A DNA stretch of 64,000 nucleotides from Aureimonas phyllosphaerae (lineage in GTDB: Bacteria > Pseudomonadota > Alphaproteobacteria > Rhizobiales > Rhizobiaceae). Under the pieces are notes generated by a model. That model made no database searches, had not been told where the DNA came from, and was given only the letters and a program-made list of their open reading frames with translations. The stretch is taken from contig NZ_FOOA01000003.1 of assembly GCF_900113065.1 (NCBI RefSeq), forward strand, positions 1 through 64,000, in the 5' to 3' direction. Position 1 is the stretch's first letter, and each line of letters starts with the position of its first letter. This document shows, piece after piece, positions 34,191 through 47,932 of this stretch. The position numbers and the translations under genes were made by a program.

Positions 34191-35003
34191 TCAGCGCTGC
34201 CAGCGTTCCTGCCATTGGGCTTCGCCGATGAGACAGTTCGCGGGTGCCCCTTCCATTGCCGCGGGGACGATGCGGTCCTGCCTCGCGCGGATCGGCCAGA
34301 GCCCGGCCAGTTCGAGGACCAGCTTGCGCCTAACCGCCTGCGGGAACTGCGCCCAGTCGTTCACGGGGATCATGAACGAGCCCGGACCGCCGATCACGCA
34401 ATCGGTGTAGTAGCGGTCAAGATCCCGGATCGATCCCCAACCGCCGCGAAGATCTTCACCCTGCGTCATCAGCGGCAGGCCGTTGATCGTGATGCCACGC
34501 GCCACCGCCGCATCGCGCGCGTCGGTGACCGGGCGCCCCTGATTGTTCGGCCCGTCGCCCGAGACGTCGATGACGCGGCGCATACCCTCGAAGCCGTTGC
34601 GGTCGAACAGACCGGCCGCGAAATCGATCGCCGAGGAGATGGAGGTCCGCCGCATCCGGTCCGGCCGCGCCTCGGACAGGCGATAGGCGAAGGCTTCGGC
34701 GGCTTCCTTGCCGTCGATCAGCGTCCAGGGCAGCACCACCTGCTGCGACGTGTCGCCGGCCCATTCGACATAGGTGACCGCTACGCGGCCGTGCATGCCG
34801 TCGGTGATCGCCTGCTGCAGTTCGGCGGAGCGGAAGGCGGCGACGTAGCCGTCCCGCTGGATGTCGAGCTCGCCGTAGTCCATCGACCACGAAACGTCGA
34901 CTGCAATCACCAGCTCGACGTCGACCGGCTCCTCGCCCGCGGCCTTGGCGGGGATCGAGTTCAGGAGCGATCCGCAGATCGCGAGGGCGACGAGCTTCAG
35001 CAT
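34191..35003 (-). CDS. DUF1194 secreted VWA-like protein
   Basis: A 270-residue protein with a signal peptide (residues 1-21, ending AKAAG). The rest is a DUF1194 domain, a von Willebrand A-like fold with the MIDAS motif DVSWSMD near residue 36, TSISSAIDFAAGLF, and VIDVSGDGPNNQGRP. A metal-dependent binding role in the periplasm is plausible; no partner is known to me. The 143-base gap to the next, divergent gene is the likely promoter region. Confidence 0.85.
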   Translation of the reverse strand: MLKLVALAICGSLLNSIPAKAAGEEPVDVELVIAVDVSWSMDYGELDIQRDGYVAAFRSAELQQAITDGMHGRVAVTYVEWAGDTSQQVVLPWTLIDGKEAAEAFAYRLSEARPDRMRRTSISSAIDFAAGLFDRNGFEGMRRVIDVSGDGPNNQGRPVTDARDAAVARGITINGLPLMTQGEDLRGGWGSIRDLDRYYTDCVIGGPGSFMIPVNDWAQFPQAVRRKLVLELAGLWPIRARQDRIVPAAMEGAPANCLIGEAQWQERWQR

Positions 35004-35146
35004 CGCATCAACGTCCGCCCATTCCGATTCGGATGCAAGTCCCGAACGAAAGGCTGCGACGACGGATGCCGTCGAGACGGTACTTAATGGCGGCTTAAGG
35101 CCGTTTTGTCAGAGTGTGGACGACCCGCAACTGCCGGAAGCCGTCG

Positions 35147-36895
35147 ATGTCCCTCCCCCTCGAAACCCGCATCGGCGCCCATCGCGTGCCACACGTATCG
35201 CCCTCGTCCGCGATCCTGTCGCCGCTCGCGATCGGACTGGCGACGGTGCTGGTGGCGGCGCTCCTGCTCAGCCTGCCGATCTCGCTGCCAATCGGTGCAA
35301 TGTACTGGGACGTCGTCGTCTTCATCGACGGGGGCTGGCGCGTGCTCAACGGGCAGACGCCGTCGGTCGACTTCTTCGCGCCCGTCGGCCCGCTCGGTTA
35401 CTGGCTCTTTGCGGCAGGTCTCGAGATCTTCGCCAAGCCGCAGCCGCTCCTGCTGGCGCAGTGGATGCTGCTGCCGGTGACGCTCGCCGGCCTCCTTCCC
35501 GTGCTCGTGCGCATCGACAGGAGCTCGCGCACGCTGGCTTTAGCACTTCTGCTGCCGTTCCTCCTGTTTCAGCTTCTGCCGACCAATCTCGAGCAGTTCT
35601 CGTCCTATCCCGGGTTCGACGGCTTCGGGATCTACAACCGCCATGGAACGCAGCTTCTCTACGTGCTGATGGTCGCGCTCGTGTTCGAGCGCCGTCAGCG
35701 CGTGCTCCTGTTCGTCATCGCTTGGATCTGCGCGGCGCTGTTCCTGTCGAAGATCACCGGTTTCATCGCGGCGGGCGGGCTTTGCGCCTTCGCGTTCGCG
35801 GCCGGACGGGTGCGCCTGTCGACAGCGGTCGGTGCGCTCGCGGCCTTCGCGGCGGTGCTGGCTGGACTGGAGGCGACGACCGGCGTCGTCAGCGCCTATC
35901 TCGGCGATATCGCTTCGCTCGTCGGCATGAACGAGGGTGTTCTCATCAGCCGCTTCGTCCAGGCGGCTTCGATCCATTTCGGCATCTTCGCCTCGGGTTG
36001 CCTCCTCTTTGCCGCCCTCCTGTTCCTCGACAGCCGCCCCATCGCCTCGACGATCGGCGCCGCCGCGCGTCATCCCCTGCGCGCCGCGACCTGGGTCGCG
36101 CTTCTCGATCGGAACGCCGTCTGGCTGGGCGTCGCGCTCCTCGCAGGCCTGTTTTTCGAGACGCAGAACACGGGCGGTCAGGCCTTCATCTTCATTTGGC
36201 CGGTGCTGGTGCGCATCGCCTGCGACGCCTCGCGCCATTCCCAGCGCGCGACGGTTGCCGTTCTCGTCCTCGTCGCAGCCGTCGCGATGCCTCCGTTCGT
36301 CAACGTCCTGCACCGCTCGGCTCGGGCCGTCGTCGGGCAGCTGATGTACGTGAAGGTGCCGGCACAGAACCTGAAGGCCCTCGACAGCGTGACCCAGCGG
36401 CCCGAGGTGATCGACCGGGCGGCGCACATGATCGACAACTACGTCGCCTATCCCCGGACCTACGAGGCGCTGGCCGCCGACGGGCAGCTGCCGATCTTCA
36501 GCCTCTATTCCGAGCTCGATTTCCAGGCGGCCTGGCTGATGACGGCCAACGAGGCGGTGGACGCGATCCGCGCCTACGAGACGGCCCATGGGGTGCGGTT
36601 CGAGACGATCATGAACCTCAATTTCGTGAACCCCTTCCCGTACGCCCTGGGCCGTCAGGGCACGCCGTTCATCGCGATCGGCGCCGATCCGTTCCGTGCC
36701 ATCCCGCCGCCGAACGCCCGGACGATCGAGGCCGTCCGCAACACGGACCTCGCGCTCCTGCCGCTCTGCCCGGTGACGGTGGCGAACCAGACGATCCAGA
36801 AGATCTATGCGGAAGGCCTGCGCGACCACGTCGCCGTGCCGCTGTCGCGGTGCTGGACGGCGTATATTCGCCCCGGACTGATCCGGGGCAATTGA
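35147..36895 (+). CDS. Uncharacterised polytopic membrane protein, GT-C-like
   Basis: A 582-residue protein with about ten hydrophobic segments across residues 25-420 and a soluble C-terminal part of about 170 residues. The first outer loop has conserved-looking acidic residues (YWDVVVFIDGGWRVLNGQTP, then VDFFAPVGPLGYWL), the arrangement of GT-C glycosyltransferases that use polyprenyl-phosphate sugars. I cannot place it in a named family. GGAAG precedes the ATG at 35147. It is convergent with an operon that appears to make and flip a polyprenyl-phosphate sugar, so it could be the transferase that uses that donor in the periplasm; this is inference. Confidence 0.7.
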   Translation: MSLPLETRIGAHRVPHVSPSSAILSPLAIGLATVLVAALLLSLPISLPIGAMYWDVVVFIDGGWRVLNGQTPSVDFFAPVGPLGYWLFAAGLEIFAKPQPLLLAQWMLLPVTLAGLLPVLVRIDRSSRTLALALLLPFLLFQLLPTNLEQFSSYPGFDGFGIYNRHGTQLLYVLMVALVFERRQRVLLFVIAWICAALFLSKITGFIAAGGLCAFAFAAGRVRLSTAVGALAAFAAVLAGLEATTGVVSAYLGDIASLVGMNEGVLISRFVQAASIHFGIFASGCLLFAALLFLDSRPIASTIGAAARHPLRAATWVALLDRNAVWLGVALLAGLFFETQNTGGQAFIFIWPVLVRIACDASRHSQRATVAVLVLVAAVAMPPFVNVLHRSARAVVGQLMYVKVPAQNLKALDSVTQRPEVIDRAAHMIDNYVAYPRTYEALAADGQLPIFSLYSELDFQAAWLMTANEAVDAIRAYETAHGVRFETIMNLNFVNPFPYALGRQGTPFIAIGADPFRAIPPPNARTIEAVRNTDLALLPLCPVTVANQTIQKIYAEGLRDHVAVPLSRCWTAYIRPGLIRGN

Positions 36896-36904
36896 GGCGA
36901 CAAC

Positions 36905-36936
36905 AAAAAGGCCGGGTCGATCGACCCGGCCTTTTT
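36905..36936. terminator. Bidirectional rho-independent terminator between convergent genes
   Basis: A perfect 32-base palindrome with arms AAAAAGGCCGGGTCGA and its exact complement, giving A5 on one side and T5 on the other. It terminates both the rightward GT-C-like gene and the leftward aminotransferase operon. Confidence 0.9.
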
Positions 36937-36959
36937 CGTGACGGGTATGAGCCTCCGGC

Positions 36960-38414
36960 TCAGCCCATCTGCGTCTTCACGAAGTCCTTGACGATCGAGA
37001 CGATGCCGCGGCCGAGAAGCTCGTCCAGCGCGTCGCAGAACTGGTCGACGTTCTCGTGGGAGCAGATCAGCGGCGGCTCCAGGCGGATGACGTTGCGATT
37101 GTACTCGGTGAAGGCGACGAGGCAGTCGTAGTCCTTGAGGAGCAGCGCCCCGATGAAGCCCGACAGCGAGCCCTTCAGCTTGTCGTCGAGGAGCGCCACC
37201 ACGGGACGCAGCGCGAAGGGCAGCGTCTGCGAGAAGTCGTGGAACTCGAGGCCGACCATCAGCCCCCTGCCGCGGACCTCCTTGATGATCGACGGGTACT
37301 TCTGCTGAATCGCCTGGAGGCGCTCCTTCAGGTACGCGCCGACCACCTCGGCATTGCCGATGAGATCTTCGTCGTAGAGCGTGTTCAGAGCCTCGATCGA
37401 AGTGGCGCAGCCCTCGCCGATACCGCCGAACGTGGCATGGGCATGGATCATCGCCGTCTTCGGCGTGCCGTAGGCCTTCATGTAGACGTCGCGCTTGGCG
37501 ATCATCGCGGCCATCGCCGCCTTGCCGCCGCCGAAGCTCTTGGCGAGCGCGGTCACGTCCGGCACGACGCCGTGGTGCTCGAAGGCGTAGAAGCGACCGG
37601 TGCGCCCGTAGCCGCACTGCACCTCGTCGGCGACCCAAATGACCTTATGCTGGTCGCACAGCGCGCGAACGCCCTGCCAGTATTCGGTCGGCGCCTCGAC
37701 GATGCCGCCGCCGCCCTGCACCGTCTCCAGCACCACGACGCCAACGTCCGGGTCGGAGCGAACGACGGCGGTCAGCGCCGCGAGGTCGCCGAAGGGCACG
37801 CGATAGGTGTTCTCGACCAGCTTGAACTCGCCCTTGTAGAGCGGCGAGTCGGTGATCGAGAGGACGCCTTTGGTCTTGCCATGGAACGAGTTCTCGGCAT
37901 GGACGATCTTGCAGTTCTTGCGACCGCTAGCGCGCTCGGCGACCTTGATCGCCGCTTCCATGGCTTCCGAGCCGGACGAGCCGAGGAACACCATGTCGAG
38001 GTCGCCGGGCGAGCACGCCGCGACGTTCTTGGCCAGCGCCGCCGCGTACTGCGACAGGAAGGCGATGGCGATCTCGTGGCGCTTCTCGTCCTGGAACTGC
38101 TTGCGTGCGCCCACGATCCGCGGGTGGTTGTGGCCGAAGGCGAGCGAGCCGAAGCCGCCGAAGAAGTCGAGGATCTTCCGGCCGTTCTGGTCGATGTAGA
38201 ACATGCCCTCGGCGCGCTCGACCTTCACCTTGTGGAAGCCGAGCAGCTTCATGAAGTGGAACTGGCCGGGGTTGATGTGCTCCTTGAACACGTCGGCCAT
38301 GGTGCCGACGTCCATGGCCTTCGCCTGGTCGAGGGTCAGCATGTCGGGCTTGGGCGGCCCGAGGCGCGGGGCGTCGTCGAGCGCGGGGGCGGTGGTCGTC
38401 GGACGATCAAGCAT
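36960..38414 (-). CDS. Class III PLP-dependent aminotransferase
   Basis: A 484-residue fold-type I class III aminotransferase. The PLP Lys is in TALAKSFGGGKAAM, with the phosphate site GSSGSEAMEAAIKVA, the Asp of WVADEVQCGYGRTG and the arginine-containing C-terminal RNVIRLEPPL. Class III enzymes normally use omega-amines (ornithine, GABA, putrescine); the hopanoid enzyme HpnO is also of this class. Here it is the last gene of an operon for polyprenyl-phosphate sugar chemistry, so a keto-sugar substrate is conceivable. The gap to the preceding SDR gene is 12 bases. Family assignment is firm, substrate unknown. Confidence 0.87.
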   Translation of the reverse strand: MLDRPTTTAPALDDAPRLGPPKPDMLTLDQAKAMDVGTMADVFKEHINPGQFHFMKLLGFHKVKVERAEGMFYIDQNGRKILDFFGGFGSLAFGHNHPRIVGARKQFQDEKRHEIAIAFLSQYAAALAKNVAACSPGDLDMVFLGSSGSEAMEAAIKVAERASGRKNCKIVHAENSFHGKTKGVLSITDSPLYKGEFKLVENTYRVPFGDLAALTAVVRSDPDVGVVVLETVQGGGGIVEAPTEYWQGVRALCDQHKVIWVADEVQCGYGRTGRFYAFEHHGVVPDVTALAKSFGGGKAAMAAMIAKRDVYMKAYGTPKTAMIHAHATFGGIGEGCATSIEALNTLYDEDLIGNAEVVGAYLKERLQAIQQKYPSIIKEVRGRGLMVGLEFHDFSQTLPFALRPVVALLDDKLKGSLSGFIGALLLKDYDCLVAFTEYNRNVIRLEPPLICSHENVDQFCDALDELLGRGIVSIVKDFVKTQMG

Positions 38415-38426
38415 GGCGCGGGCTCC

Positions 38427-39440
38427 TCACTCGGCCGGCTGGGGATAGGCGGAGCGGGCGGCCGAGCGGCCCTCCTTCTTCGCGCGATACTCTGTATAGG
38501 CGGCGATTAGCATGTCCTCGTCGCGGTACTGCGGCACCCAGCCGAGGTCGCGCTTGCCCTTCGAGACGTCGAGCACGCATTCCTCGTCGGCGATGAGGTA
38601 CTGCTCGGGGTCCATCAGCGGCATGTTCAGCCAGTCGAGGAAATCGAGCGTGCGCTTCACCGCAAAGCCTGGCGTCGGGATCAGGATCGACTTCGAGCCG
38701 GCATGGCGCACGAGGTCGCCGAGAAGCTTCTTCACCGGCGGCGGGTTGAGCGAGCCGAGATTGTAGGCCTCGTTCGGAACGCCCGCCTTCCAGGCGAGAC
38801 GCGCCGCCTCGGCGCAGTCGAAGACCGAGATGAACTGATAGGGGTTGCGACCCGAGCCGATCATCGGCACCGGCAGGTTCGCGTCGATCAGCTTGAACAG
38901 CTTCTCGAGGATGCCGAGACGCCCCGGCCCGATGATGAGACGCGGGCGGAACAGCGAGATGTTCATGCCGCGCCGGCGCCAGTCGGCCGCCAGGACCTCG
39001 GTGTCGAGCTTCGACTGGCCGTACTCGCCGAGCGGCGCGACCGGATGATCCTCGGTCATCGGCGTCGTGACGGTGTGGCCGTAGATCATGTCGGTGGTGA
39101 AATGGACGAGCCGGCCGGCGCCCGCGCGGTCCATCGCCTCGATGATGTGCTTCGTGCCGTCGTAGTTGACGGGGTAGAAGAACTCGTGGCGCTTGGCACG
39201 CACCTGAAGCGGCGACAGCATCTTGGCCGACAGGTTGTAGACCATGTCGGCCGCTGCGATCGGCACCCGGTTCACGGCGGCCGCATCGGTGACGTCGACG
39301 TCGAGATGCGTGGCGCGGGCGTAGTGCGGCAGGTCGGCCTTGGCGATGTCGGCGACCACGACCTCTTCGCCGTCTGAGACGAGGCGCTGGGCGAGATGGC
39401 GGCCGACGAAACCGTCGCCGCCGAAGATCACGTGCTTCAT
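38427..39440 (-). CDS. Extended SDR, NAD(P)-dependent sugar epimerase/dehydratase family
   Basis: A 337-residue extended short-chain dehydrogenase. The nucleotide motif is VIFGGDGFVGRHLAQRL, the catalytic Thr-Tyr-Lys are in HFTTDMIYG and YGQSK, and the C-terminal part matches NAD-epimerase proteins (VFDCAEAARLAWKAG, NEAYNLGS). It likely oxidises, reduces or epimerises a sugar at the cytoplasmic face. AAGGAG lies eight bases before the ATG at 39440. Its start overlaps the stop of the flippase gene (ATGA). In a DprE1/DprE2-like scheme it could supply the second, reductive step, although DprE2 is a classical SDR. Confidence 0.87.
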   Translation of the reverse strand: MKHVIFGGDGFVGRHLAQRLVSDGEEVVVADIAKADLPHYARATHLDVDVTDAAAVNRVPIAAADMVYNLSAKMLSPLQVRAKRHEFFYPVNYDGTKHIIEAMDRAGAGRLVHFTTDMIYGHTVTTPMTEDHPVAPLGEYGQSKLDTEVLAADWRRRGMNISLFRPRLIIGPGRLGILEKLFKLIDANLPVPMIGSGRNPYQFISVFDCAEAARLAWKAGVPNEAYNLGSLNPPPVKKLLGDLVRHAGSKSILIPTPGFAVKRTLDFLDWLNMPLMDPEQYLIADEECVLDVSKGKRDLGWVPQYRDEDMLIAAYTEYRAKKEGRSAARSAYPQPAE

Positions 39441-39877
39441 CGAATGGCTCCTTCGGTGGAATGGGTCTTGGCGGTGATGGTCACCGGCACGTCGTCGGCG
39501 ATCGTAGAGCCCGTGCGGGCGATCAGGATCGTGCCGACGCAGATGAGAGCGATGCCGCCGATGCGAGCCGCGTTCAGTTCCTCGCCGAAGAGGAACCAGG
39601 CCGCGAAGGCGACGACGACGTAGGCGAGGCTGAGGAAGGGGTAGGCGTATGTCAGCTCGACCTTCGACAGCACGAAGAGGTGCGAGGCCATCGAGATCAC
39701 GAAGGTCAGGAGCCCCAGGAAGATGAAGGGGCTGAAGACGATCGAGAGGATCTTGAGGATCGGGTTGACGCCCGCGAAGCTCAAGGGGCCGAGCTGCATC
39801 ATCCCGTATTTCAGGAGCATCTGCGCGGCCGCGTTGGTGAACACTGTGAAGAGGATGAAGGGGATGTACCGGCTCAC
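39437..39877 (-). CDS. Small DMT-family transporter resembling ArnE/ArnF flippase subunits
   Basis: A 146-residue protein with four hydrophobic segments and the size and topology of ArnE/ArnF, which flip undecaprenyl-phosphate-aminoarabinose. Segments are FILFTVFTNAAAQMLLKYGM, VISMASHLFVLSKVELTYAY and PFLSLAYVVVAFAAWFLFGE. The Arn flippase is a heterodimer; only one gene is present here, so a homodimer is expected. The start is GTG with GGGAGG upstream. It lies between a DprE1-like oxidase gene and the SDR gene, which argues for a lipid-linked sugar as cargo. Confidence 0.8.
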   Translation of the reverse strand: MSRYIPFILFTVFTNAAAQMLLKYGMMQLGPLSFAGVNPILKILSIVFSPFIFLGLLTFVISMASHLFVLSKVELTYAYPFLSLAYVVVAFAAWFLFGEELNAARIGGIALICVGTILIARTGSTIADDVPVTITAKTHSTEGAIR

Positions 39878-40006
39878 GCCTTGCCTCCCGGCTGTTGGAT
39901 CTCGGGCCGGATCCTTGGCGGAGCCGGTATGCCATGCGGTAAAGACGAGGCGGGCTCGCGCGGTTGTGAACCGGCATTTCCCCCGCCAGCGTCAATCAAT
40001 CCTTGC

Positions 40007-41356
40007 CTACGCGGCCGCGCCGAAGTGCTGCCGTCCTGCATCGAGCCGCAGCGCCGTGCGGCGCCAGAAGTCCGAGACGATCGCGGGGTCGCGCATCGCC
40101 TCCAGCCGGCGCCATCGCGGGAAGGAGGCGGCGAAGACCTCCGGTGACATGCGGGCGTCCTTGTAGGGGTTTACCGCACCGCCCGCCTCGATCGTGATCC
40201 GGTCGAGCTCGTCCATCAGGGCGAGCGTCGGGGCGCCGCGATTGGGGAAGTCGAGCGTCAGCGTGTAGCCGCGGCGCGGGAAGCTCAGGAGCCCCGGGCT
40301 CGGCAGGTCGCCGAACCGCTTGAGCACGGTGAGGAACGAGCCCTGACCGTGGGCCACCGCGCATTCCATCAGCGCCCGCACCGCCTGCCGACCCATTTCC
40401 TCCGGCACGACGCTCTGGTGCTGGCGAAGGCCCTGCGGCCCGTAGAGCCGGTTCCAGCCGCCGATGCGGTCGAGCGGATAGAAGAACCCATCGAAGGGCA
40501 CGTTGCGCGTGACCTCCGCCCGGCGAAGCTTGCGGAAGTTCAGCTCGTTGAACGCCTTCAGCGCCACTCCCCGCAGGGGACTGACCGGCGGCGTGAACGG
40601 CACCGAAAACAGCGGCCGCCGGGCCCGGCCCGTGTGATCGCCCTTGCCGGCATGGTCGCCGCAGATCAGGTGGCCGCGGCCGAAGCGGGCCCCCCGCGCC
40701 AGCTGGTCGATCCAGGCGACGGCGTATTCGTGACGCTCGTCGGCCTCCGCGGCCCGCGCGAAGTAATCGTCGAGGCAGGACAGTCGATGCGTCGTCTCAC
40801 AGATGGTCAGGGACGGCACGGCGAGCAGCCGAAGGCGGACCCGCGTCACGATGCCCGTCAGCCCGAGCCCTCCGATCGTGGCGGCGAAGACGTCGGCGTT
40901 CTGCGTGCGAGAGCAGACGAGCGTGCCAAGGTCGGAGCGCATCAGCGTGAAGGCTTCGACCCAGGCCCCGAAGCTGCCGCGACGGTGATGGTTCTTGCCG
41001 TGGACGTCGTTGGCGAGAGCCCCGCCGAGCGTGACGAACTGGGTGCCCGGCGTCACCGGAAGGAACCAGCCGTGCGGGGCGATCCGCTCGGTGATCTCGT
41101 GGAGGAGGACACCGGCTTCCGCCTCGATCACCCCTTCCTGCAGGTCGAGGGAGAGGATGCGGTTGCGCACGCGCATGTCGACGAGGACGCCCGTCTCGTT
41201 GAGGCACGTATCGCCGTAGGATCGGCCGTTGCCGCGCGGCAGAAGCCCGGCTTCATTGGGCGCGACCGGGAACACGGCCGCCTGCGGCGCCTCGATCGCC
41301 CGTCGCCCCTCCGGCGGGGGTGGCATCCGCCCCCAGTTCTCGTAGAGCTCAGGCAT
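40007..41356 (-). CDS. FAD-binding oxidoreductase, DprE1-like
   Basis: A 449-residue vanillyl-alcohol-oxidase-type flavoprotein. The FAD motif is LPRGNGRSYGD, and LGGALANDVHGKNHHRRGSF is the hallmark of DprE1, the mycobacterial decaprenylphosphoryl-ribose oxidase. The catalytic Lys (DprE1 K418) is kept in NPYKDARM. The Cys that benzothiazinones modify in DprE1 (ICVDFP) is Thr here (TLTLDFP). It should oxidise C2 of a polyprenyl-phosphate pentose to a ketone. Its start overlaps the end of the HAD-UbiA gene by eight bases, so the two are coupled. Confidence 0.87.
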   Translation of the reverse strand: MPELYENWGRMPPPPEGRRAIEAPQAAVFPVAPNEAGLLPRGNGRSYGDTCLNETGVLVDMRVRNRILSLDLQEGVIEAEAGVLLHEITERIAPHGWFLPVTPGTQFVTLGGALANDVHGKNHHRRGSFGAWVEAFTLMRSDLGTLVCSRTQNADVFAATIGGLGLTGIVTRVRLRLLAVPSLTICETTHRLSCLDDYFARAAEADERHEYAVAWIDQLARGARFGRGHLICGDHAGKGDHTGRARRPLFSVPFTPPVSPLRGVALKAFNELNFRKLRRAEVTRNVPFDGFFYPLDRIGGWNRLYGPQGLRQHQSVVPEEMGRQAVRALMECAVAHGQGSFLTVLKRFGDLPSPGLLSFPRRGYTLTLDFPNRGAPTLALMDELDRITIEAGGAVNPYKDARMSPEVFAASFPRWRRLEAMRDPAIVSDFWRRTALRLDAGRQHFGAAA

Positions 41357-42791
41357 AGGCCGCCACCAGGAACATGCAGGCGCCGAGCACCATCATGATC
41401 TGCGAGCGCCAGTCGTGCATGATGAAGACGACCGGATCCTCGTGCATGTGGTTGCGGCGAGCGAGAACCCAGATGCGCACGATGATGTAGAGGACGAGCG
41501 GGCAGAGCGGCCAGAGAAGATAGGGGTGCGAGTAAAGTTCGCGGACCTCGGCGCTGTCGATGTAAAGAGCGAGAACCATCACCGCCGCAAAGCCGGAGGC
41601 CATGCCCGCCTGCCCCACCGTGTCGAGGTCGACGTCGACATAGCCGCGACCGGTCGAGGAGCGGTTCGCGCCGCCGCCGAAATCCATGATCTCGACGAAG
41701 CGCTTCACCAGCGCCAGCGACAGGAAGAAGAAGATCGAGAAGGCGAGGAGCCAGAAGGACTCGTTGGAGTCGATCGCCATGGCACCGGCGATGATGCGCG
41801 TCGTATAGAGTCCGGCGAGCGTCAGGACGTCGATCAGGAGCATGCGCTTCAGCGCGAAGGAATAGGCGGTGGTCGCGACCATGTAGAAGGCGAGCGTCGC
41901 CATGAACTCCCATGGCAGGACAGCCGCAATCGCGAAGGACGACAGGAACAGGCCCGCCGCCAGGGCCAGCCCGACCGGGATCGGCACGAGGCCGCTCGCG
42001 AAAGGACGCTTGCGCTTGGTCTTGTGGCGACGGTCGGCGGCCAGATCCAGAAGATCGTTCAGGATGTAGACCGAGGACGCCGCGAGCGAGAAGCAGATGA
42101 AGGCCAGAAGCGCCTTCAGCGCCATCGGCACGTCGAGGAATTCGTGGTTCAGCGCCATCGGCACGAACACGAGGACGTTCTTCGTCCACTGGTGCGGGCG
42201 CATGGCCTTCAGCATGCCGCGCGCGAGCGAACCGGTATCGGTGATGAGACGCGAGGGGCGCGTCGCCGCACCATGCCAGCGGCGGGCCGAGCGGTCGGGC
42301 TGGACCACGGTCGCGCTTTCGGCCGCTTCGAACAGGCAGACGTCGTCGTGCGAATTGCCGACATAGTCGAAGGCTTCGCCGTCGCAGCGAGCGCGGATAC
42401 GCTCAAGCTTGCGGGAAGCCGAAAGGTTGGTCGTCCGGTCGCTCGCCATCACCTCGTCGAAGAGACCGAGATGGGCGGACACGGCGTGGGCGAGACGCTC
42501 ATTGGAAGCGGTGGCCAGAATAATCGGCCGGCCGGCCTCGCGCTCGGCCTGCAGCGTGGCGACCACCTCCTCGCGATAGGGAAGTGTCGCCGCGTCGATC
42601 TCGGTGCGCGCCGCCAGCTCGTCCTTCAGGACAGCCTTGCCCTGAAAGGCCCAGCCGAACAGGCGCCAAAAGCCGAGCGGCTGCTGGCGCGCGAAGTGAA
42701 ACAGGCTTTCCCACAGTAGGTCTCCACGGATCAACGTTCCGTCGAGGTCGACGAACAAGGGTCGTCCCGTTCGAGTGACGTAGGTATCCAT
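41349..42791 (-). CDS. HAD phosphatase - UbiA prenyltransferase fusion
   Basis: A 480-residue two-domain protein. The N-terminal 190 residues form a HAD phosphatase (FVDLDGTLIRGD, ILATASN, GNSHDDVCLF). The C-terminal 290 residues form a UbiA-type prenyltransferase with about nine membrane segments, NDLLDLAADRRHKTKRKRP as the first Asp-rich motif and AFYMVATTAYSFALKRMLLI later. It combines the mycobacterial DPPR synthase and its phosphatase in one chain: ribose-phosphate is attached to polyprenyl phosphate and then dephosphorylated, giving the DprE1 substrate. It is first in the operon. The promoter should lie in 42792-42950. Confidence 0.88.
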   Translation of the reverse strand: MDTYVTRTGRPLFVDLDGTLIRGDLLWESLFHFARQQPLGFWRLFGWAFQGKAVLKDELAARTEIDAATLPYREEVVATLQAEREAGRPIILATASNERLAHAVSAHLGLFDEVMASDRTTNLSASRKLERIRARCDGEAFDYVGNSHDDVCLFEAAESATVVQPDRSARRWHGAATRPSRLITDTGSLARGMLKAMRPHQWTKNVLVFVPMALNHEFLDVPMALKALLAFICFSLAASSVYILNDLLDLAADRRHKTKRKRPFASGLVPIPVGLALAAGLFLSSFAIAAVLPWEFMATLAFYMVATTAYSFALKRMLLIDVLTLAGLYTTRIIAGAMAIDSNESFWLLAFSIFFFLSLALVKRFVEIMDFGGGANRSSTGRGYVDVDLDTVGQAGMASGFAAVMVLALYIDSAEVRELYSHPYLLWPLCPLVLYIIVRIWVLARRNHMHEDPVVFIMHDWRSQIMMVLGACMFLVAAYA

Positions 42792-44168: not shown

Positions 44169-44630
44169 TCAGGACGCGTTGTACTTCCGGTCGAGCGCAT
44201 CGATGGCATCGACATTGGCGGCCGACGAGCCAGCCGGATCGAACTCGGATTCCAGGTACTTGTCGACGATCGCCTTGGCGAGCTCGGGGCCGATCACGCG
44301 GGCGCCCATCGTGATCACCTGCGCGTTGTTGCTCTTGGCGGCACGCTCGGCGGAATAGGTGTCGTGCGTCAGCGCGGCGCGGATGCCGGGCACCTTGTTG
44401 GCCGAGATGTTGACGCCGATGCCGGTGCCGCAGCACAGGATCGCGCGGTCGTACTCGCCGTCCACGACGGCCCGGGCGATGCGCTCGGAAGTCGTCGCAT
44501 ACTTCTCCGCCGACCCGTCCGGCGCCTGGCTGGCGTCGACGACCGTCAGGCCGGAGCGGCCGGCAAGGTGGTCCTTGATAGCCTGGACGAGGGGCTGGCC
44601 GGCGCTGTCGCCGCCGAGAATGATCTTCAT
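44169..44630 (-). CDS. rpiB: Ribose-5-phosphate isomerase B family (RpiB/EryI-like)
   Basis: A 153-residue RpiB-family isomerase. The active-site Cys is in [10 protein letters not shown], with GGDSAG at the N-terminus and [14 protein letters not shown] near the end. RpiB interconverts ribose-5-P and ribulose-5-P; a paralogue (EryI) in Brucella isomerises D-erythrulose-4-P to erythrose-4-P. It follows the SorC regulator gene on the same strand by 106 bases and is divergent from tkt and a second tpiA, the context of the EryI type. AGGTGAG precedes the ATG at 44630. Confidence 0.88.
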
Positions 44631-44736
44631 GGGTCTCACCTGATGGTTGAGGAGCGGGTCCGCGGATCCGGACCGACGACGCCGGGGCGCCCTCTCGTTC
44701 ATAATATCGCAGCCTTGTTCAAACGATCAAGGTCCT

Positions 44737-45708
44737 TCAACCACCCTTGGTCGCCTGATCGAGGGCGAGAATGCCGTGTGCGTTGGCGAGCGAGGTCGCG
44801 ATGACGTCGATGGCCCCAGTCCGCAGGGCGGCGAGGATCGGCATGGCCTTGGTCGGCTCCGCGGCCACCGCGATCGTCGTCGGGATCGCCCGGATGTCGG
44901 CGAGGCGCAGGCCGACGACCCGTCCGCCGAGGATCTCGTTCCGCTCGCGCCCGTCGATGTCGTAGAAGTCGTAGCCCATCAGATCGCCGACGACCCCGGC
45001 CGCCCGCGCGCCGAGAAGTTCCTCCCGGCGAAACCAACCCATCCGGGCCATGTGGCTTTCCTCGCCGAGGTCGCCGATGCCGACGAGCGCGAACGCGGCG
45101 CTCCGCCCGAGATCCAGCGTCTGCTTCACGGTCGGGTTCGCCATCAGGCCGGCGCGCAGCGTCGCGTCCGGCACGTAGGCCGGCGCGTAGAGCGTTTCGG
45201 GCACGCCGCCGAACCGACGTGCGAGCTTGCGGCAGATGTGGTCGGCGTTGGAGGGCTCCCCCGCCTGATGCGCGCCGCCGGTGGCGGAGACGAAGGTCGC
45301 ATGCTCCAGGAACGGGCGACCGCGCGTCTCGGCGACGGCTGCGATGTTGCGGCCCATGCCGACGGCGACGACCGCACCCTCGAAGAGTTCGCGCTCGAGA
45401 TAGTCCGCGACCAGCAGCGCCACCTCGGCGCGCTGCGCGTCGGCTTCCCGCCGGTCGACCGCGATCAGCGCCGCCTTGACGCCGAACCGCTCCCTCAGCC
45501 GTCGCTCGAGATCGGCTTCCACGGCACGGTGGACGCGGATCCGAACGTCCACGATCCCCGCATCGCGCGCCTGGCGCAGCAGGCGGTTCACTTTCATGCG
45601 AGACAGGCCGAGTTCGGCCGCAATCTCGGCCTGCGTGGCCTGCCCCTCATAGTAGCGGCGGGCGACCTGCATCATCGCATCGACATCGGCGGGTGCTAAG
45701 GTTTCCAT
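44737..45708 (-). CDS. SorC-family transcriptional regulator (EryD-like)
   Basis: A 323-residue SorC-family regulator. The helix-turn-helix is in QAEIAAELGLSRMKVNRLLR (about residues 26-45). The sugar-binding part has VAVGMGRNIAAVAET, FVSATGGAHQAGEPSNADHI and LVGIGDLGEES. EryD of Brucella is of this family and responds to erythritol. It is divergent from tkt; the region between holds a perfect TTCATATGAA dyad. It probably controls both tkt-tpiA-fba and itself with rpiB. Confidence 0.88.
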   Translation of the reverse strand: METLAPADVDAMMQVARRYYEGQATQAEIAAELGLSRMKVNRLLRQARDAGIVDVRIRVHRAVEADLERRLRERFGVKAALIAVDRREADAQRAEVALLVADYLERELFEGAVVAVGMGRNIAAVAETRGRPFLEHATFVSATGGAHQAGEPSNADHICRKLARRFGGVPETLYAPAYVPDATLRAGLMANPTVKQTLDLGRSAAFALVGIGDLGEESHMARMGWFRREELLGARAAGVVGDLMGYDFYDIDGRERNEILGGRVVGLRLADIRAIPTTIAVAAEPTKAMPILAALRTGAIDVIATSLANAHGILALDQATKGG

Positions 45709-45759
45709 GTTCGCTTCCGCAGGTCAGACTTCACGTATCGACGGCGATGAGCCATGGCT

Positions 45760-45791
45760 GTTCATATGGCAGGCATGCGTTCATATGAACG
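45760..45791. promoter_or_regulatory. TTCATATGAA operator region for the SorC regulator
   Basis: CGTTCATATGAACG (45778-45791) is a perfect 14-base palindrome. A half-matching copy, GTTCATATG, starts at 45760, 19 bases earlier, so the two sites lie on nearly the same helix face. They sit 52-83 bases from the regulator start and 138-170 bases before tkt. TTCA/TGAA arms are usual for SorC-family operators. Confidence 0.55.
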
Positions 45792-45928
45792 TTTTTCATG
45801 TCGCGCGGATTGATTCAAGCGCCGTGGCGTGGTTCTGCTGGCGCAGCACCGCGCGAGTCCGGCAGGCCGGGTCGCTTCGCGCAGGGCCCACTGAAGCGCC
45901 GCGACCAAGATCGAGGGAGACGACCACC

Positions 45929-47932
45929 GTGGACACGACACAAGCCCCCAGCCTGGATGCCAAGCAGATCCGCGCGATGGCCAGCGGCATCCGCTTCCTG
46001 TCGATGGACGCGGTGGAAAAGGCCAATTCCGGCCACCCGGGCATGCCGCTCGGCATGTCGGACGCGGCGACCGTCTTGTTCAGCCAGTTCATGAAGTTCG
46101 ACGCCAAGCGTCCGCACTGGCCCGACCGCGACCGCTTCGTGCTGTCGGCCGGCCACGGCTCGATGCTGCTCTACAGCCTGCTGCACCTCACGGGCTACGA
46201 GGACTTCACGATCGACGAGCTGAAGCGCTTCCGCCAGCTCGGCTCGAAGGCCGCCGGTCACCCCGAATTCGGCGAGGGCGCCGGCATCGAGACCACCACC
46301 GGCCCGCTCGGCCAGGGTCTCGCCACAGCCGTCGGCATGGCGCTGGGCGAGAAGATCCTGCGCGAGCGCTTCGGTGAAGAACTCGTCTCGCACTACACCT
46401 ACACGATCGCCGGCGACGGCTGCTTCATGGAGGGCGTGAGCCAGGAGGCGATCTCGCTCGCCGGCCACCTGAAGCTGAACAAGCTCATCGTCCTGTGGGA
46501 CGACAACCGCATCACGATCGACGGCGCGACCGACATCACGACGTCGGACGATCTCGCCGCCCGCGTGCAGGCGTCGGGCTGGGCGACGTCGGCCGTGGAC
46601 GGACATGACCCTGAGGCGGTCGCCGCCGCGATCGAGGCCGCGCGCCGCTCGGACAAGCCGACGCTCATCGCCTGCCGCACCACGATCGGCTACGGCGCCG
46701 GCAAGAAGGCCGGCACGTCCGGCGTCCACGGTTCGCCGATCGGCGCCGAGGGCATCGCGTTCGCCCGCGAGCATTTCGAGTGGGCGCACGAGCCCTTCGT
46801 GCTGCCCGACGTCGTCACCGACTTCTGGAAGGCCGTCGGCACGCGCGGCGCGGCGGAAGCCGATGCCTGGGAGAAGCGCCTCGCCGCTTCCGCCCATGCC
46901 GATGCGTGGAAGACCATCATGGCGGACGGCTTCGACGGCGACGCCGCCGCGATCCTCGCCGACGTGAAGGCGAAGTTCGCCTCCGACGCAGCGTCGGTCG
47001 CCACCCGTAAGGCCAGCCAGACGGTGATCGAGGCCCTGGTCGCGAAGTCCGCCAAGCTCATCGGCGGCTCGGCCGACCTTACCGGCTCGAACCTCACCAA
47101 GGCCGGCGCGATGAAGCCGGTGACGGCGACGGACGCGTCCGGCAACTACATCTACTATGGCGTGCGCGAGCACGGCATGGCCGCCGTCATGAACGGCCTG
47201 TCGCTGCACGGTGGCTTCACGCCCTTCGGCGGCACCTTCCTCTGCTTCTCCGATTACGCCCGCCCGGCCATGCGCCTGTCGGCACTGATGCACCAGCCGG
47301 TCGTCTACGTGATGACGCATGACTCGATCGGCCAGGGCGAAGACGGCCCGACGCACCAGCCGATCGAGCACCTCGCCTCGCTGCGCGCCATGCCGAACAT
47401 GCTGGTCATGCGCCCGGCCGACGGCGTCGAGACGGCGGAGTGCTGGGAAGCCGCGCTGGTCAACACGAAGTCGCCGACGACGCTGGTCCTGTCGCGCCAG
47501 AACCTGAAGGCGCTGCGCACCGGATCGGTGGGTGAGAATCTGTCGGCGAAGGGCGGCTACGTGCTTGTCGAGGCCGAGGGCGGCGCGCGTCAGGTGACGA
47601 TCCTTGCCACCGGCTCCGAAGTCGAGATCGCGGTCGCGGCGCAGAAGCTGCTCACCGAGAGCGGCGTTCGCGCGGCGGTGGTGTCCCTCCCCTGCTGGGA
47701 GCTCTTCGCCAAGCAGCCGAAATCCTATCGCGAGGAGGTGCTGGGCTCGGCGCCGCGCATCGCGGTCGAGGCCGCTTCGCCGTTCGGCTGGACGCGCTTC
47801 GTCGAGGAGGAGGACGACGTCGTCGGCCTGCCCGGCTTCGGCGCCTCGGCCCCCGGCGGCGATCTCTACAAGCATTTCGGGCTGACGCCCGAGAAGGTCG
47901 CCGAGAAGGCCCGCGCCAAGGTCGGCGCCTGA
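45929..47932 (+). CDS. tkt: Transketolase
   Basis: A 667-residue thiamine diphosphate enzyme moving two-carbon units between ketoses and aldoses (pentose phosphate and Calvin pathways). Features are KANSGHPGMPLGMSDAA, the ThDP motif GDGCFMEGVSQEA, and the pyrimidine-domain YYGVREHGMAAVMNGLSLHG and QGEDGPTHQPIEHLAS. The GTG at 45929 (VDTTQAPSLDAKQIRAMA) has GAGGGAG upstream and gives normal length; the frame stays open to 45707 through the operator region. It is divergent from the SorC gene. A terminator follows, so tpiA and fba need readthrough or their own promoter. Confidence 0.95.
   Translation: MDTTQAPSLDAKQIRAMASGIRFLSMDAVEKANSGHPGMPLGMSDAATVLFSQFMKFDAKRPHWPDRDRFVLSAGHGSMLLYSLLHLTGYEDFTIDELKRFRQLGSKAAGHPEFGEGAGIETTTGPLGQGLATAVGMALGEKILRERFGEELVSHYTYTIAGDGCFMEGVSQEAISLAGHLKLNKLIVLWDDNRITIDGATDITTSDDLAARVQASGWATSAVDGHDPEAVAAAIEAARRSDKPTLIACRTTIGYGAGKKAGTSGVHGSPIGAEGIAFAREHFEWAHEPFVLPDVVTDFWKAVGTRGAAEADAWEKRLAASAHADAWKTIMADGFDGDAAAILADVKAKFASDAASVATRKASQTVIEALVAKSAKLIGGSADLTGSNLTKAGAMKPVTATDASGNYIYYGVREHGMAAVMNGLSLHGGFTPFGGTFLCFSDYARPAMRLSALMHQPVVYVMTHDSIGQGEDGPTHQPIEHLASLRAMPNMLVMRPADGVETAECWEAALVNTKSPTTLVLSRQNLKALRTGSVGENLSAKGGYVLVEAEGGARQVTILATGSEVEIAVAAQKLLTESGVRAAVVSLPCWELFAKQPKSYREEVLGSAPRIAVEAASPFGWTRFVEEEDDVVGLPGFGASAPGGDLYKHFGLTPEKVAEKARAKVGA

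Follow-up and report, generated by a model that had tools for sequence, protein, structure and literature searches.

Within the first 64,000 nucleotides of contig NZ_FOOA01000003.1 of Aureimonas phyllosphaerae (GCF_900113065.1), the stretch analyzed here and hereafter called the window, lies an operon of five minus-strand genes in which homologues of enzymes making lipid-linked pentoses are joined to an aminotransferase. From upstream to downstream, the operon encodes a UbiA-HAD fusion (41349-42791; 480 aa, with Pfam HAD at 13-154 and UbiA at 224-452), a DprE1-like flavin adenine dinucleotide (FAD) oxidase of the FAD-binding-4 type (40007-41356; 449 aa), an EmrE/ArnE/ArnF-like small membrane protein (39437-39877; 146 aa, EamA/ArnF-like), an extended short-chain dehydrogenase/reductase (SDR) (38427-39440; 337 aa, Pfam Epimerase 118.2 bits) and a class III pyridoxal phosphate-dependent aminotransferase (36960-38414; 484 aa, Aminotran_3 282.1 bits). 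A sixth gene, on the plus strand and convergent with the operon, encodes a protein with a predicted GT-C fold (35114-36895; 593 aa, start codon uncertain). The UbiA and DprE1 genes overlap by 8 bp and the EmrE and SDR genes by 4 bp, while 12 bp separate the SDR and aminotransferase genes and the longest intergenic gap, 129 bp, lies between DprE1 and EmrE. The six genes had been called from the sequence in an earlier reading of this DNA (the original prediction), and all are present, with coordinates and domain families in agreement.

Regarding the UbiA-HAD fusion, it scores 628.1 bits against NCBIfam PRK08238 (cut-off 351), and its only PDB relatives to E 1e-5 are two decaprenyl-phosphate phosphoribosyltransferase sequences (8j8j and 8j8k), in alignment with which an NDxxDxxxDRxHxTKxxRPxAxG stretch is conserved. 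By homology, it is predicted to be a polyprenyl-phosphate phosphoribosyltransferase carrying a 5-phosphatase domain. The DprE1-like protein matches 9 distinct PDB sequences to E 1e-10, all of them DprE1 (best 216.6 bits), and retains the KDxR lysine. Because its 333.6 bits against the DprE1 equivalog model NF053785 lie under the curated cut-off of 500, we designate it a DprE1 homologue rather than a certified equivalog, which by homology would oxidize the 2'-hydroxyl to a 2-keto group. It is the single DprE1 of this genome, the two other matches being weak (E 4.5e-7 and 4.7e-7). A threonine stands at the site of the mycobacterial DprE1 cysteine, the residue bound by benzothiazinones. The small membrane protein reaches 32.2 bits for EamA and, under the curated cut-offs, 54.5 for ArnF (cut-off 99) and 38.2 for ArnE; against the PDB it gives weak EmrE matches (E 0.02-0.07), and it is proposed as a candidate flippase. 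The extended SDR, whose Pfam and NCBIfam scores were obtained on the protein minus its first four residues, shows the motifs GGDGFVG and Y140xxxK144; we propose it as a candidate C3 epimerase of the lipid-linked pentose because of its analogy with ORF13 of the Citrobacter youngae three-component system.

For the 593-aa protein, no Pfam or NCBIfam match was found to E 0.001, nor any match of its profile among PDB sequences. Its AlphaFold2 model (pLDDT 86.1, pTM 0.87) finds as best PDB folds ArnT (5ezm, E 2.8e-5; 5f15), then ALG12 and AftA. Structure prediction thus bears out the earlier description of this protein as GT-C-like, with nothing finer assigned than the modelled fold.

Conservation of the operon

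From a scan of genome contigs that found 395 relatives, the loci of the best 80, a selection leaning to close ones, were retained and one Neorhizobium plasmid locus was added, giving 81 loci (L numbers; G numbers denote genomes). Gene counts rest on tblastn because a simple gene caller missed or shadowed genes, such as DprE1 in L135 and L136. Among these loci, the SDR, EmrE and aminotransferase genes are found in all 81, UbiA in 80 and DprE1 in 75. The full set of five occurs in 74 of the 81, always in the same order and on the same strand (74/74), a conservation which shows that the operon is not a chance assembly; the incomplete loci comprise six lacking DprE1 and one, at a contig edge, lacking UbiA. 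The operon spans distant genera, being conserved in Aurantimonadaceae, Roseibium, Mesorhizobium and others, and at two Aureimonas loci (L018 and L019) the aminotransferase is 100% identical. Its slowest-evolving pair is formed by the SDR and the aminotransferase, with 75-81% identity between the Mesorhizobium and Roseibium loci and the window as against 51-61% for UbiA and DprE1.

Among 121 sampled genomes of Hyphomicrobiales, aminotransferase orthologues (67-100% identity) are present in six, scattered over five families, with a sharp drop to relatives of 33-35% identity. SDR orthologues are found in seven, namely these six and G043. Among 367 genomes of the class, both genes occur in the window's own genome and in G329 only. 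The latter lies outside Hyphomicrobiales and holds the five genes (L180) in a different order, with DprE1 and aminotransferase overlapping by 4 bp in the gene calls and a UbiA protein devoid of the HAD domain.

Regarding the GT-C-fold protein, members of its family were recovered in the stretches fetched around 23 of the 81 loci. A second GT-C-like family, with proteins of about 400 aa, occurs at 45 loci, at 40 of them directly downstream of the aminotransferase; no locus has both, and 13 have neither, which led us to reject the 593-aa protein as the universal partner of the operon. The co-occurrence of six genes expected in the original prediction hence holds across distant genera for the five operon genes and for the sixth near 23 of the 81 loci only. 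The profile of the 593-aa family matched at L136 and L138 and that of the ~400-aa family at L134 and L141, while both profiles gave no match at L142, L145 and L149 or at 11 of the 13 loci with neither family (all but L030 and L031). The ~400-aa family has a weak GT87 match in one of three members scanned (22.6 bits, cut-off 25), and its model resembles ALG9, ALG12, ArnT and EmbC, all at E values of 0.001 or more. Just past the first long helix, both families show an invariant WD pair (W65-D66 and W62-D63), which fits what Kelly et al. (2024; PMC11127046, in the portions available) describe as the catalytic aspartate of this enzyme class.

Other genes accompany the operon. A FkbM methyltransferase relative is found in 20 of the 81 loci, and a DUF1194 protein, encoded in the window beyond the GT-C gene (34191-35003), belongs to a family represented in the stretches around 56 of 80 loci, with Mesorhizobium among them. 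Upstream of the operon, past an outer-membrane protein gene, are genes for ribose-5-phosphate isomerase B, a SorC-like regulator and transketolase (44169-47932), which are also upstream at four other loci, all from Aureimonas (L018, L019, L021 and L023).

Aminotransferase and DprE2 across genomes

If the aminotransferase acts on the product of DprE1, the genomes encoding it are expected to need DprE1 but not DprE2, the enzyme of the arabinose branch. In the 121-genome sample, with DprE1 called to E 1e-50 and DprE2 to E 1e-32, DprE1 is present in 20 genomes, DprE2 in 14 and the aminotransferase in six. All 14 DprE2 genomes and all six aminotransferase genomes fall within the 20 having DprE1, which divide exactly into six with the aminotransferase and without DprE2 and 14 of the converse kind, none having both or neither. 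Fisher tests give p 2.6e-5, 8.6e-5 without the window's own genome and 5e-4 with each family and state counted once, values that are optimistic given the shared ancestry of these genomes; the aminotransferase genomes belong to five families and the DprE2 genomes to nine, one family having both. One genome of this survey, G037, has DprE1 and DprE2 and no HAD-UbiA match at the threshold used. This unusually clean split is the decisive genomic test of an aminotransferase acting on the DprE1 product. It lies outside the checks listed in the original prediction and agrees with the amination put forward there.

The comparison was extended to a chosen set of 39 genomes, made of six canonical controls, G043 and 32 genomes with the aminotransferase, 25 of whose loci were hand-picked from the 80 so as to cover a spread of genera and five of the operons lacking DprE1. 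With the DprE2 model, the six controls score 176-206 bits, G043 scores 196 and G121 scores 171, and none of the other 31 of the 32 aminotransferase genomes exceeds 85.3 bits; in the window's genome, the best match reaches 74.1 bits, the level of a generic SDR. In one control genome, a second and unrelated match reaches 102.9 bits. No DprE2 protein of this set reaches the 250 bits curated as cut-off for the model; that of L142 passes PRK07102 (343.8 bits, cut-off 267).

The six operons without DprE1 (L030, L031, L035, L039, L041 and L048) might have indicated that this enzyme is dispensable. This possibility was rejected since a single DprE1, 40-48% identical, is encoded outside the operon in each of the six genomes, as compared with a background of 14 in the 115 sampled genomes devoid of the aminotransferase; DprE2 was not found in four of the six (G123-G126). 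In a DprE1 tree, 22 of the 23 aminotransferase-linked DprE1s and that of G043 form one clade (100/97), while those of G329 and the six displaced DprE1s fall outside it, in two places. The tree thus indicates that different DprE1s have taken the place of the operon's own on more than one occasion, an argument for its activity being needed. The single stops flagged in DprE1 of G121-G124 and in the SDR of G043 are, in the gene calls, the genes' own end stops. Because of the exact split among the 20 DprE1 genomes and the presence of DprE1 elsewhere for DprE1-less operons, the aminotransferase appears to stand in for DprE2.

G043 (loci L136, L189 and L190; completeness estimated at 100%) has a UbiA-DprE1-EmrE-SDR cluster with a convergent GT-C gene, and no aminotransferase orthologue was found in it. 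Its DprE1 belongs to the aminotransferase-type clade, and a DprE2, 67% identical to a canonical one, is encoded elsewhere. In this single case, the presence of DprE2 goes with the absence of the aminotransferase and not with that of the SDR.

Proposed pathway and its alternatives

We consider it likely that the operon specifies a three-component system of pentofuranose surface glycosylation into which an amination branch is built. This proposal draws on the genes observed, their conservation as an operon, the DprE1 that always accompanies them and the complementarity of aminotransferase and DprE2, together with the modelled GT-C fold. After phosphoribosyl transfer and 5-dephosphorylation by the UbiA-HAD fusion, DprE1 would oxidize C2 of the lipid-linked pentose to a ketone, as its homology and that of the fusion suggest for these first three steps. 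The aminotransferase would then aminate the ketone to a polyprenyl-phosphate 2-amino-2-deoxypentofuranose in place of the DprE2 reduction to arabinose, as the genomic complementarity suggests, and the extended SDR would probably, as the analogous ORF13 suggests, invert a further carbon, C3. Finally, the EmrE/ArnE-like protein would flip the lipid-linked amino sugar and the GT-C enzyme would place it on a surface glycan, two steps to which fold and neighbourhood point. We infer every reaction from these elements, as we do the aminated carbon, the stereochemistry, the flip and the acceptor. The specific version, in which the 2-keto lipid is transaminated to polyprenyl-phosphate 2-amino-2-deoxypentofuranose, of xylo or lyxo configuration should the SDR invert C3, in scattered members of Hyphomicrobiales (6 of the 121 genomes) while G043 makes polyprenyl-phosphate lyxofuranose, is one we favour by a modest degree only. 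For G043, this product would follow from an SDR inverting C3 in a genome with DprE2 and without the aminotransferase; according to Kelly et al., in the portions available, lyxofuranose is absent from all solved carbohydrate structures (PMC11127046).

Two further observations may be counted in support, namely that the highest-scoring relatives of the aminotransferase outside its clade are HpnO-like, HpnO itself aminating a lipid-borne ribose, that of ribosylhopane (PMC12583986, from the portions available), and that the fold of the GT-C protein most resembles that of ArnT, the aminoarabinose transferase. The suggestion of the original prediction that the aminotransferase could aminate the keto intermediate before flipping and transfer is supported by the co-occurrence of the five operon genes, the position of the aminotransferase outside the HpnO clade and under the ornithine aminotransferase cut-offs, and the GT-C fold.

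Several points weigh against this interpretation. Doubt attaches mainly to which carbon carries the amine and to the ability of a class III aminotransferase to accept this ketone. Enzymes of this class mostly act on aldehydes, as do PigE and putrescine aminotransferase, the closest solved relatives of the operon aminotransferase in the PDB. G121 and G122 (the latter outside the 39-genome set) hold the aminotransferase and DprE2 together, and in both the only DprE1 found belongs to a second cluster, alongside UbiA and DprE2. Regarding the transfer step, the TM-scores of the 593-aa model to ArnT, ALG12 and AftA are low (0.31-0.43), no member of either GT-C-like family lies in the fetched stretch at 13 of the 81 loci, and both profiles gave no match at the further aminotransferase loci L137 and L180. 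Finally, the part played by the aminotransferase can be told apart from that of the SDR in one genome only, G043.

This last point bears on a first alternative, in which the SDR would replace DprE2 by reducing the 2-keto group to a neutral pentose and the aminotransferase would modify the acceptor or another carbon. The SDR accompanies the aminotransferase in all 81 loci, so that the absence of DprE2 tracks both genes, and an aminotransferase acting on aldehydes, like its solved relatives, would suit this scheme. We nevertheless hold it unlikely: G043, a single genome, has the SDR and DprE2 without the aminotransferase and disfavours a simple replacement, and ORF13, the extended SDR of the known system, converts ribo to xylo, i.e., acts at C3 (PMC11127046, in the portions available). 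A second alternative, which we deem quite unlikely, would have the SDR create a keto group at C3 or C4 for the aminotransferase to act on, with DprE1 as a separate step; the product would still be a lipid-linked amino pentose, similar to 4-amino-4-deoxyarabinose (Ara4N). The adjacency of the SDR and aminotransferase genes and their status as the slowest-evolving pair would fit, but the presence of DprE1 beside 75 of the 81 aminotransferase loci and elsewhere in the genome for the other six, as well as the absence of DprE2 from 31 of 32 aminotransferase genomes, would be left unexplained.

That the aminotransferase is HpnO or a general amine or ornithine aminotransferase, outside any sugar pathway, is very improbable. 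HpnO-like proteins are its highest-scoring relatives outside its clade in the 121-genome scan (33-35% identity), those in L181, L182, L183 and L185 being encoded near HpnN and/or HpnH; at L184, two neighbours gave no match, and the relatives of L016 and L017 were left out of this check. However, in an IQ-TREE tree of 27 proteins, for which the tool gave a long-branch warning, the 17 operon aminotransferases taken in form one clade (100/100) and seven of the 33-35% relatives another (99/98). Moreover, no squalene-hopene cyclase match was found in the window's genome. The portions of PMC12583986 available list Aurantimonas, Fulvimarina, Jiella, Mesorhizobium, Roseibium and Tianweitania among genera without shc, and report Roseibium album to be devoid of all six key hopanoid genes, with C30 hopanoids undetected, while the operon is present in a genome named Roseibium album (L060). 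Since Aureimonas is tabulated there among genera with shc, the argument for the window rests on the missing cyclase match. The protein also stays under the ornithine and acetylornithine aminotransferase cut-offs (TIGR00707, 267.1 against 410.05; TIGR01885, 217.7 against 378.4), while another protein of the same genome (L002) passes PRK01278 (651.2 bits, cut-off 372), and all 81 aminotransferase loci have the SDR and EmrE genes. The worry voiced in the original prediction that the aminotransferase is HpnO-like hence finds no support, and the protein falls neither within the HpnO clade nor above the argD and ornithine aminotransferase cut-offs. Within its own clade, D263 and K292 are invariant across six aligned orthologues.

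DprE1 is a much-studied drug target and, to our knowledge, one fate of its product is known, arabinose; nor do we know of a polyprenyl-phosphate 2-amino-2-deoxypentofuranose donor anywhere else. If true, the amination proposed here would provide a second fate for the DprE1 ketone and a new sugar donor, and it would probably result in a cationic surface sugar on plant-associated and marine bacteria, as Ara4N changes surface charge. The aminotransferase would then be a marker gene for finding this glycan.

Comparison with known systems

Among class III aminotransferases of lipid pathways, HpnO, which acts in aminobacteriohopanetriol synthesis, is comparable in that the group it aminates derives from ribose and is borne by a polyisoprenoid lipid (PMC12583986, in the portions available); the operon aminotransferase differs by its clade, its lipid and a genome with no hopanoid cyclase match. 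The noeCHO genes for Nod factor arabinosylation in Azorhizobium are proposed D-arabinose precursor genes, similar to their mycobacterial counterparts, with no aminotransferase named in the portions of PMC2443382 available. On plasmid pNGR234a of Sinorhizobium fredii NGR234, an SDR homologue (27% identical) and a GMC oxidoreductase flank an SMR transporter (L193:4845-8290), and on an Azospirillum sp. B510 plasmid, an SDR homologue (45% identical) lies beside a GMC oxidoreductase (L191:9001-11602); these are perhaps a parallel module with a GMC enzyme replacing DprE1. At L149-L155, L159 and L145, HAD-UbiA was seen with only a small protein of the GtrA type (EamA type at L145) and no DprE1, and the final donor of these systems is probably polyprenyl-phosphate ribose. 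At L156, L158 and L160, UbiA-DprE1-DprE2 clusters are accompanied by another extended SDR and a FAD amine-oxidase-like protein.

The Ara4N pathway starts from UDP-glucuronate, with an ArnB-type aminotransferase. It shares with the operon a lipid-linked amino pentose (predicted here), an ArnE/ArnF-like flippase and the ArnT-like GT-C fold, whereas the operon would start from phosphoribosyl pyrophosphate and use a class III aminotransferase. With the decaprenyl-phospho-arabinose pathway, the operon shares UbiA and DprE1 homologues, the latter below the NF053785 cut-off, and the same predicted 2-keto intermediate; that pathway continues with DprE2, found in none of the six aminotransferase genomes of the order sample, while the operon has the aminotransferase. 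The small membrane protein also differs, being EmrE-like in the operon and GtrA-like in six canonical order-mates (L142, L143, L144, L147, L156 and L160).

The closest known frame, not mentioned in the original prediction, is provided by the three-component pentofuranose systems, such as that of Citrobacter youngae O1/O2 (ORF12-15; PMC11127046, in the portions available). In these systems, which put alpha-pentofuranoses on surface glycans, undecaprenyl-P-ribofuranose is the product of a HAD plus UbiA synthase; flipping is presumably the task of an EmrE/ArnE-like protein, and periplasmic transfer of the sugar that of a GT-C enzyme. DprE1/DprE2 homologues accompany arabinose, and the word aminotransferase does not occur in the main text (Kelly et al., 2024). 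In the literature searched, which most subscription journals lie outside, we found no description of an aminotransferase working with DprE1 or of an amination branch, and, beyond PMC11127046, nothing on point regarding amino pentoses, DprE1 with transamination or GT136 follow-ups. The operon has, by homology, the HAD-UbiA synthase and, beside it, the EmrE/ArnE-like flippase (a weak match, below curated cut-offs), as well as the extended SDR and, in the window, an adjacent GT-C gene, neither family being present in the stretch fetched at 13 of the 81 loci. It differs by the addition of DprE1 and the aminotransferase and by a GT-C protein not known to be GT136. Undescribed in the literature searched and present in several families of Hyphomicrobiales, the operon probably represents a known kind of system, the three-component pentofuranose one, with a proposed amination branch.

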